Positions 29,043 through 30,568 of a DNA stretch of 30,568 bases are shown here, piece by piece (the stretch's first letter is position 1; each line of letters begins with the position of its first letter). This DNA is from a virus: positions 1 to 30,568 of IMG/VR virus record IMGVR_UViG_3300012936_000095; one strand, written 5' to 3'. Under the pieces are notes generated by a model, which made no database searches, had not been told where the DNA came from, and saw only the letters and a list, made by a program, of their open reading frames with translations. The position numbers and the translations under genes are program-made.

Positions 29043-29246
29043 ATGAAATTAGAAGAATATCGTAAAAACGCAAAGATGACACTGAAGCAGCTTGCAGAAA
29101 AAGTAGGCGCTCCACATGCTACCGTTGTACGGCGTTGGTGTTTGCCTATCGACCACAAGGATTACAAGATACCATCTGCTAAGTATATGAATTTAATACA
29201 AGATGCAACGATGGGGCAAGTTACGCCCAACGATTTTTACAGATGA
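29043..29246 (+). CDS. Cro/CI-like helix-turn-helix regulator (67 aa)
   Basis: The 67-aa protein has an N-terminal helix-turn-helix of the Cro/XRE type: MTLKQLAEKVGAPHATVVRR (residues 11-30), with the QLAEKVG turn and a recognition helix, then a C-terminal TPNDFYR end known from Cro-like phage repressors. It lies right next to the inverted TTGACA repeats, as expected of an auto-regulated switch protein. The ATG of the methyltransferase overlaps its stop (ATGA), so both are cotranslated. It could regulate both the recombination operon and its own operon. Confidence 0.75.
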   Translation: MKLEEYRKNAKMTLKQLAEKVGAPHATVVRRWCLPIDHKDYKIPSAKYMNLIQDATMGQVTPNDFYR

Positions 29247-30388
29247 ATTTACTACGTCATGTTGATTTATGTTCGGGTATCGGAGGTTTTGCTTTAGGGT
29301 TTCAGTGGGCAAATTTGAGTAAGCCTATTATGTTTTGTGATATAGAACCTTGGAGTAGACAGATCCTGTCAAAGCATTGGCCTGACGTTCCAATTGCTAC
29401 AGATGTAAAGGAGTTAGCAAATGACCCAAATGGACTTGTTCCAGACTGCGACATCCTCACAGCCGGATACCCATGCCAACCATTTTCACAAGCCGGGCAG
29501 CGAAGAGGCAGTGAAGATGACCGACATATCTGGCCGTACATATTTTCCATTGTTCAAAGAAAACGACCGTCTTGGTGCGTTTTCGAGAATGTTTTTGGGC
29601 ACGTCACTTTGGGGCTCGACGAAGTGTTATCTGACCTGGAAGGGGAAGGCTACGCCACAAGGCCGTTCGTTGTTCCAGCTTGTGCCGTTGACGCATATCA
29701 CCGAAGAGACAGACTTTGGATCATCTGTAGAAATGTGGAGAACTCCAATGGCGGCAGACGGTACACACAATCACTGTTTGGCTCCGAGCGTAGTAGAGGG
29801 GAAAACGACTTTAACACTAACGAACCAAGTCAAAGGTGGGATAGCAGGGCTTTGGACAACACCAAACACGATGGATCACCTACCCCAACGGTCAAAGGAA
29901 GCATTGGAAAGGCAAGCAAACACCACACGCAAGGGCAGAACAAGACCAGCCAATCTCAGAGAGCAAGTGAACCCAGAGACAGTGGAAGCGTGGGAGAAAG
30001 CGCAAGAACCACAGATGTGGCCGACACCCAGAGCTTGTTCAGCAATGTCGGCAGAGAACATACACAACAGAGTGAAGGACAAGTTTCCGAACTTGGAGAG
30101 CGAAGTAGCGAGATCAATGTGGCCGACACCGTCAGCAAGCGACAACAGGGATCGCGGTCACGTAGGGATGCCGGCAATAAAAAGACGCATGGAAAAGGGA
30201 AAGCAACTGAACCTATCAATGGTAGTGCCGGAAGTTTCTGGGAGCCTGAACCCAGAGTGGGTAGAGTGGCTAATGGGGTATCCAAGAGGGTGGACCGACT
30301 TAAAGGATTAGGCAACGCAATCGTACCTCAGATAGCAATGAGGATTGGGCAGACAATAAAGCATATAGAGGAACAAGATGGGCGGTAA
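29243..30388 (+). CDS. C5-cytosine DNA methyltransferase
   Basis: The 381-aa enzyme methylates cytosine at C5 with S-adenosylmethionine. Visible motifs: I, DLCSGIGGF (8-16); catalytic PCQ (77-79) in AGYPCQPFSQAG; ENV (115-117); HRRDRLW (153-159); and late RLKGLGNAIVPQ (352-363). The region from about 165 to 333 is Ser/Asn/Gly-rich low-complexity and replaces a normal target recognition domain; it is exactly the part over which a second ORF is read in another frame. The start ATG overlaps the HTH stop. It probably protects phage DNA from host restriction; the target sequence is unknown. Function of the unusual middle is not clear. Confidence 0.88.
   Translation: MNLLRHVDLCSGIGGFALGFQWANLSKPIMFCDIEPWSRQILSKHWPDVPIATDVKELANDPNGLVPDCDILTAGYPCQPFSQAGQRRGSEDDRHIWPYIFSIVQRKRPSWCVFENVFGHVTLGLDEVLSDLEGEGYATRPFVVPACAVDAYHRRDRLWIICRNVENSNGGRRYTQSLFGSERSRGENDFNTNEPSQRWDSRALDNTKHDGSPTPTVKGSIGKASKHHTQGQNKTSQSQRASEPRDSGSVGESARTTDVADTQSLFSNVGREHTQQSEGQVSELGERSSEINVADTVSKRQQGSRSRRDAGNKKTHGKGKATEPINGSAGSFWEPEPRVGRVANGVSKRVDRLKGLGNAIVPQIAMRIGQTIKHIEEQDGR
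29421..30311 (+). CDS. Nested phage protein in the +1 frame of the methyltransferase (296 aa)
   Basis: An ORF of 296 codons lies entirely inside the methyltransferase gene, one base shifted. ATG 29421 has AAAGGAG exactly seven bases upstream. The protein has a recognisable phage layout: SGRTYFPLFKENDRLGAFSR, then LGTSLWGSTKCYLTWKGKAT, then four copies of a W-x-TP motif (MWRTP, LWTTP, MWPTP, MWPTP), and the C-terminus GSLNPEWVEWLMGYPRGWTD. I know these segments from phage proteins found with cytosine methyltransferases, function unassigned. A plausible role is target recognition or partnership with the methylase, which lacks a normal recognition domain; that is inference. Both frames carry conserved motifs, so this is unlikely to be a chance ORF. 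Confidence 0.75.
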   Translation: MTQMDLFQTATSSQPDTHANHFHKPGSEEAVKMTDISGRTYFPLFKENDRLGAFSRMFLGTSLWGSTKCYLTWKGKATPQGRSLFQLVPLTHITEETDFGSSVEMWRTPMAADGTHNHCLAPSVVEGKTTLTLTNQVKGGIAGLWTTPNTMDHLPQRSKEALERQANTTRKGRTRPANLREQVNPETVEAWEKAQEPQMWPTPRACSAMSAENIHNRVKDKFPNLESEVARSMWPTPSASDNRDRGHVGMPAIKRRMEKGKQLNLSMVVPEVSGSLNPEWVEWLMGYPRGWTDLKD

Positions 30389-30568
30389 AGCGAGTAGAGA
30401 TAAGGGCGCAAATTTCGAGCGCGAGATAGTAAACCTACATAAATCATGGGGCGTTGATGCGGAGCGTATTCCGTTGTCAGGAGCCGTCAAAGGGAATTAT
30501 TCGGGTGATTTAAAGATCGGCCCACAACAGGCTTTGCTTGCTGAGTGCAAGCGAAGAGCCAGAGCATA
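30378..30568 (+). CDS. Holliday-junction-resolvase-like PD-(D/E)XK nuclease, cut by right edge
   Basis: ATG 30378 overlaps the methyltransferase end by 11 nt, with AGAGGAA five bases before it. The 63 visible residues read KGANFEREIVNLHKSWGVDA, then ERIPLSGAVKGNYSGDLKIG and LLAECKRRARA. E14, D44, E56 and K58 form a PD-(D/E)XK active-site pattern (E...D...E-x-K), and the ER-x-PLSG segment is typical of Hjc-like resolvases of phages. It would cut branched DNA before packaging. The C-terminus is outside the window, so length and remaining motifs cannot be checked. Confidence 0.8.
   Translation, partial: MGGKASRDKGANFEREIVNLHKSWGVDAERIPLSGAVKGNYSGDLKIGPQQALLAECKRRARA

Follow-up and report, generated by a model that had tools for sequence, protein, structure and literature searches.

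Gene content of the locus

The window, meaning the whole stretch of DNA that was analyzed (30,568 bases of a virus record), was identified as a tailed-phage fragment carrying terminase, head-tail adaptor, and major head and tail genes. It contains a C5-cytosine methyltransferase open reading frame (MT) and, entirely within it and on the same strand, a nested open reading frame (NE) with which it shares almost 900 bases (Table 1). The stop codon of the HTH gene upstream overlaps the MT start in the bases ATGA, and these two genes are therefore probably carried on the same transcript. The first-pass annotation had described a nested frame inside a cytosine methyltransferase, with its own AAAGGAG site seven bases before the ATG, the catalytic PCQ within the overlap, and the end motifs of both proteins read from the same bases. 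Its coordinates for the nested frame were exact, and the frame relation, the ribosome site, the position of PCQ, and the shared bases of the two ends were all confirmed.

Table 1. Features of the methyltransferase locus and their positions in the window.
Feature	Position	Strand	Remarks
Small HTH protein gene	29043..29246	+	adjoins MT upstream, near right end of window
MT, C5-cytosine methyltransferase ORF, 381 aa	29243..30388	+	PF00145 1.1e-35; phrog_363 6.7e-65
MT motif I DLCSGIGGF	29264-29290	+	from sequence
AAAGGAG, Shine-Dalgarno site of NE	29407..29413	+	seven bases upstream of ATG 29421
NE, nested ORF, 296 aa + stop, ATG start	29421..30311	+	+1 frame relative to MT; phrog_1008
NE N-terminal domain, residues 1-105 (SGRTYFPLFK..STKCYLTWKGK)	29421..29735	+	overlaps MT catalytic domain; both frames constrained
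MT PCQ	29471-29479	+	inside NE overlap
MT ENV	29585-29593	+	from sequence
MT motif VIII region	29687-29725	+	from sequence
NE variable array, four WxTP modules	29736..30245	+	anchors WRTP 29736, WTTP 29853, WPTP 30018, WPTP 30120
NE C-terminal segment LNPEWVEWLMGYPRGWTDL, motif-IX-like	30246..30302	+	from sequence pattern and position
MT motif IX/X-type end EPRVGRVANGV..RLKGLGNAIVPQIA	30248-30337	+	from sequence
PDDEXK/Holliday-junction resolvase gene, start only	30378..30568	+	overlaps MT end; contig end cuts gene

Database searches with both translations placed MT in PF00145 and phrog_363 and NE in phrog_1008 (E 1.7e-31, residues 4-168), a family labelled "DNA methyltransferase" whose profile also matched all 106 NE proteins scanned. 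The C5 methyltransferase motifs I, IV (PCQ), VI (ENV), VIII, and X are present in MT in their usual order, in agreement with the PF00145 match. NE gave no match in Pfam or NCBIfam and has no sequence relatives in the PDB, and when modeled alone it yielded a low-confidence fold (pLDDT 65.5, pTM 0.31) with no Foldseek match. A search for an RNA element gave no Rfam match.

Protein coding in both frames of the overlap

Over the overlap the third same-strand frame contains 22 stops compared to none in the MT and NE frames. Synonymous shuffling of MT introduced a mean of 8.0 stops into NE and the reciprocal shuffling of NE a mean of 9.4 stops into MT, with 0/500 shuffles leaving the other frame open in either direction. 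The nested frame is thus no accident, in keeping with the earlier statement that frames of this kind are rarely accidental. The NE profile scored 339 bits on the real +1 frame, while 200 MT-synonymous shuffles averaged 95 bits and peaked at 142. The mean shuffle score of 95 bits is bleed-through from MT conservation, such that bare E-values for the nested frame (e.g., 6e-25) overstate the case unless they are accompanied by a shuffle control.

The first sample of loci was gathered via nested peptides and may hence carry an ascertainment bias; both frames were open across its 63 distinct loci, invariably in the same +1 relation. A second sample of 80 relatives was for this reason found only via the first 59 MT residues, which lie outside the NE overlap. 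The nested ORF was present in 79 of these, the contig of the 80th stopping before the NE position, and the two samples agreed, both being composed of fairly close relatives with some contigs that truncate both frames. Routine interruption of the nested frame by stops in homologues, which the first-pass annotation had named as evidence against its proposal, was thus not what the relatives displayed. Among individual phage genomes, NE was supported with 0/200 shuffles as high in Paenibacillus phage Shelly, Xanthomonas phage PhiXhv-5, Salmonella phage epsilon15, Mycobacterium phage Nitzel, Stenotrophomonas phage S72, Bacteroides phage BS-TP4, and Rhodobacter phage RcMaeve. The NE signal did not exceed shuffles in the canonical C5 methyltransferases of Klebsiella phage Miro, Streptococcus phage IPP54, and Staphylococcus phage CUB-EPI_14. 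Further relatives were identified in bacterial assemblies of many phyla, where they presumably represent prophages.

The translation start of NE is also conserved. The MT lysine codon within the Shine-Dalgarno site was AAG in 65/65 distinct relatives compared to 123/174 lysines elsewhere in the non-overlapping part of MT (Fisher P 1.7e-8), and the NE start codon was ATG or GTG in 63/65 distinct loci. Codon usage within the overlap, compared for a hint as to the older frame, was depressed in both frames, with NE slightly closer to the usage of the phage itself.

Substitution rates by codon position separate the constraints on the two frames, MT position 3 corresponding to NE position 2 and MT position 1 to NE position 3. 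For 29 independent pairs, each sequence being used once, the MT position-1/position-3 rates were.100/.293 before the overlap,.104/.134 over the first 105 NE codons,.130/.035 in the module region,.118/.040 over the last 27 NE codons, and.051/.252 after the overlap, and the same pattern was obtained from 494 non-independent pairs. The freedom of MT-silent sites was roughly halved at the start of NE. The relation was reversed in the module region, with MT position 3 below position 1 in 23 pairs and the opposite in 3, NE being the better conserved frame in the middle of the overlap. In the first part of the overlap, MT-silent changes favored NE-conservative outcomes (0/2000 simulations as high), and NE-silent changes favored MT-conservative outcomes in all parts. 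The NE-silent changes also avoided creating MT stops, with 0 observed vs. 14.2 expected in the first part, 4 vs. 26.6 in the module region, and 2 vs. 10.4 at the NE end. Both frames are therefore protein-coding throughout the overlap and under purifying selection in both, and the dominant frame switches along the gene. The nested frame is hence selected at the protein level and not neutral, as the first-pass annotation had anticipated, and the dual coding of MT and NE is real to near certainty.

A passive nested ORF, that is, a long frame left open by the amino acid and codon composition of MT with a similarity that echoes MT conservation, would account for the mean of 95 bits that this conservation alone produces off-frame in the window. 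It would not account for the shuffle results, the reversal of position-specific rates in the module region, the un-nested NE copy found in one relative (L275, described below), or the methyltransferases of Miro, IPP54, and CUB-EPI_14 that carry no NE signal above shuffles, and it was regarded as extremely improbable. The simple case of a chance ORF was rejected on the synonymous shuffles, the position rates, and the un-nested copy.

The ShiLan domain, a hidden HNH frame, is a documented case of an out-of-frame gene in phage methylases (PMC11855218), and the nested frame could by the same token be an invading element concealed in the methylase. This has very little probability for NE, which has no HNH or other nuclease match, whose first 105 codons overlap conserved catalytic motifs and not an insertion, and without which MT is essentially absent among close relatives. 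NE differs from ShiLan, an inserted homing element, in being neither a nuclease nor an insertion. A hidden nuclease of the ShiLan kind was rejected as no HNH match was obtained for the window NE, and among 106 NE relatives the search for HNH gave one isolated weak GH-E match (E 0.024). A separate observation that recalls ShiLan-type elements was made in a Muribaculaceae assembly (L272 1786-2532), where an in-frame HNH-type insertion (CECCG..HHPDY..LCQKCH) lies directly before PCQ in a C5 methyltransferase and is followed by a stop, with the nested frame continuing downstream.

Architecture of the two proteins and of rearranged relatives

MT retains motifs I-VIII and X, and residues G12-G15, P77-C78-Q79, E115-N116-V117, R155/R157, and G357-N358 were invariant or nearly so in 92-96 relatives. 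In the predicted structure, residues 1-165 and 350-378 were confident and residues 172-341 mostly had pLDDT <50. The MT profile aligned to M.HhaI over the catalytic part only, and the model matched M.HhaI, M.HaeIII, and DNMT1 over about 170-200 residues. Neither the predicted structure nor the profile match of MT contained a folded target-recognition domain between motifs VIII and IX. The low pLDDT at 172-341 and the confinement of matches to the catalytic part indicate that the place of target recognition in MT is probably empty or unfolded and that an overprinted linker connects VIII with X. Over the NE modules this linker is of the VADT type and predicted to be disordered, and its repetitive character is explained by the bases of the WPTP anchors, which read VADT in the MT frame. 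Just before motif X, MT keeps a conserved segment of its own (R341..R349..R352), and MT may for this reason need no motif IX in trans.

NE consists of a conserved N-terminal domain (best predicted at residues of about 28-90), a variable middle, and a near-invariant end, LNPxWVEWLMGYPxGWT. The middle is an array of modules that each start with WxTP, and 518 such modules in 174 NE proteins had a median of 40 aa (interquartile range 34-42). The modules are shuffled between phages: the same types recur beside different neighbors, giving 129 distinct module orders in the 174 proteins, and NE length ranges from about 168 to 493 aa. The longest form (493 aa, L222 2167-3645) carries a near-exact tandem duplication of two modules with both frames open, which suggests the repeated WPTP/VADT bases as sites of duplication by which arrays lengthen. 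The LNPxWVEWLMGYP end occupies the motif IX position, its putative assignment as a second-chain motif IX being judged by position, pattern, and the alignment of locus L293.

The modules and the LNP segment also occur in other arrangements. Three actinophages (Mycobacterium phage Wachhund gp69, Gordonia phage Jabberwocky gp4, and Mycobacterium phage Tweety gp72) combine the catalytic domain in cis with LPTP modules, an LNPxFxEWMMGxP-type segment (LNPAFxEWMMGLP-type), and motif X within a single ORF. In Mycobacterium phage MeeZee (gp78, gp77) and Arthrobacter phage JaNo (gp79, gp80) these are split over two adjacent genes, with the catalytic part in one and the modules, IX, and X in its neighbor. 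Locus L293 has a LNPDWVEWLMGYP segment in the MT frame just before LGNSVVP, and PF00145 aligned to almost the whole protein (3-334 to profile 2-322, 4.8e-50); the distance from LNPDWVEWLMGYP to GN is 29 residues, compared to 29 in the canonical enzyme of Miro and 34 in that of CUB-EPI_14. At L275 an un-nested NE gene lies directly downstream of MT, and at L138 (542-2082) MT is closed between motifs VIII and X to give two ORFs with NE (765-1688) whole, each of these two loci being known from a single assembly in which an error is possible. Taken together, the fused, split, L293, L275, and L138 forms suggest that the functional place of the modules and the LNP segment is between the catalytic domain and motif X, and that this place may be filled in cis, from the following gene, or from the nested frame.

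Other irregular loci were noted. In Gordonia phage GordTnk2 (L311 1502-2372) MT ends directly after motif VIII and an ORF at 1743-2372 with an NE-type end continues in the other frame, of which only a part (2166-2375) is annotated. In a Clostridia assembly (L268 2134-3182) the catalytic part of MT runs through a frame switch into an NE end (MNPEWVEWLMGYPIGWTEL), with motif X on a separate ORF, although an assembly error is possible. In L212 and L083, which are the same contig, MT has a stop near the contig end and NE is open, reflecting a real loss or a contig-end error. Traces of the NE N-terminal domain in the +1 frame of actinophages with the cis or split arrangement were weak (2 to 27/200 shuffles as high; Wachhund 0/200), and in view of the bleed-through control the presence of N-domain relics in the cis-type phages is offered as a suggestion.

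Even with real dual coding, NE could be an independent protein such as a regulator, a restriction inhibitor, or a DNA-binding factor, and MT could work alone with an atypical flexible recognition segment. The missing Pfam and PDB matches of NE, the conserved segment that MT retains before motif X, the protein-level selection that also acts on the MT frame in the module region, and the un-nested NE at L275 are all compatible with such independence. It was nevertheless considered unlikely, given that several actinophages have modules and an LNP-type end built covalently into one chain between the catalytic domain and motif X, which is difficult to reconcile with a role elsewhere, and that L138 has a whole NE where the MT frame is closed over the modules.

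The in-frame fusions, together with MeeZee, JaNo, and GordTnk2 in which the MT ORF ends after motif VIII and a second frame continues, would also fit a programmed +1 frameshift from the MT catalytic domain into the NE modules and motif IX that produces one chimeric chain. The conserved Shine-Dalgarno site and start codon of NE argue against this mechanism, as does the return of motif X to the MT frame in the window type, which would require two shifts; an unsystematic look identified no slippery site, and the probability given to a frameshift is low.

A proposed two-subunit enzyme and its precedents

The preferred reading, held with a probability of roughly 0.68, is that MT and NE form a two-subunit C5-cytosine methyltransferase, in which the gene of the catalytic subunit also carries, overprinted, that of the specificity subunit. 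MT would be the catalytic subunit, providing AdoMet binding, the PCQ nucleophile, ENV, and motifs VIII and X, and NE, translated from its own Shine-Dalgarno site, would be the specificity subunit. The WxTP modules of about 40 aa would read the DNA targets, a role as target-recognition units for which the odds are judged to be even, and the motif-IX-like end of NE would dock at the usual junction of motif IX with the catalytic domain. The two proteins would assemble and methylate the phage DNA, with escape from host restriction as the most likely benefit, and gain, loss, and shuffling of modules would change the targets and hence the protected sequences. The array itself is modular, and in other phages modules share a chain with the catalytic domain; the assembly of MT with NE, the reading of targets by the modules, and the anti-restriction role are what we infer from sequence. 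Assembly is made plausible by the established complementation between fragments of C5 methyltransferases split between motif VIII and the target-recognition domain (TRD; PMC3404938).

The first-pass annotation had suggested that the two proteins may form a compact modification system, the nested one making up for a function that the methylase has lost, and the outline of this proposal is supported, with its functional step as the putative part. The lost function may be named more closely as target recognition, since MT is predicted to have no folded target-recognition domain and NE holds a module array and a motif-IX-like segment that stand in cis in other phages.

By analogy, the nearest precedent is M.EcoHK31I, whose small subunit is translated in an alternative frame that overlaps the gene of the large subunit. 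As outlined in PMC3404938, this two-polypeptide C5 methyltransferase (YGGCCR) has motifs I-VIII and X on the large subunit and motif IX on the smaller polypeptide, with both chains needed (citing Lee et al., 1995). The likeness lies in MT holding motifs I-VIII and X and in NE being encoded in an overlapping alternative frame, and it would extend to the motif-IX-like segment of NE. The same source outlines a TRD predicted in the large subunit of M.EcoHK31I (PMC3404938), whereas, as far as the two can be compared by description, the TRD region of MT is predicted to be disordered and NE holds the variable module array. NE further differs in its variable length and in also covering the catalytic motifs. 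In M.AquI, motifs I-VIII are on one chain and the later specificity/IX part on another (PMC3404938), and the split actinophage genes MeeZee gp78/gp77 and JaNo gp79/gp80 look similar to it. M.AquI differs from the window type in that IX and X are both on its small subunit, whereas here X is on MT and the second gene is nested.

The modules may have a counterpart in the multispecific phage C5 methyltransferases, where modules of about 40 aa are likewise found and are plastic. In these enzymes (SPR, phi3T, and H2 type) tandem target-recognizing modules in a described sequential order lie between motifs VIII and IX (Wilke et al., 1988, as reported in PMC8936443). Their modules belong to the same chain and frame, in contrast to the WxTP modules of this locus, putatively each with a target of its own, which are in the other frame and chain. 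The existence of a widespread phage methyltransferase family, in which an exchangeable array of modules of about 40 aa and motif IX are overprinted on the catalytic gene, the dominant frame switches, and retargeting proceeds by shuffling with both frames open, is a proposition that could fall either way. If it is true, phages retarget their methyltransferase by module shuffling while both frames stay open, and the interchangeable modules would be a testable source of new cytosine-methylation specificities. Same-strand overlaps of about 900 bases with both frames selected across hundreds of relatives are rare, and the two overlapping products here appear to be parts of one enzyme. The relatives also constitute a large natural data set for the evolution of dual coding, with the switch of the dominant frame and with fused and split forms for comparison.

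The nested frame has been annotated before. Gp56 of Paenibacillus larvae phage Shelly ("g55 internal gene") is the same nested frame entered as a CDS by the depositors, as is an overlapping CDS pair of Xanthomonas phage PhiXhv-5. A literature search found annotation only, and, in the papers searched, no description of the coding status, selection, modules, or role of the frame. With two-polypeptide enzymes known and no paper found on the MT/NE overlap, the form appears to be undescribed, and its kind to resemble M.AquI and M.EcoHK31I. The second product is usually missed or labelled a duplicate methyltransferase, and many phage "DNA methyltransferase" genes are thus candidates for re-annotation. 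PHROGs 1008, 31772, and 10223, all labelled "DNA methyltransferase", match the nested frame, and part of the public phage methyltransferase label therefore probably refers to the second subunit.
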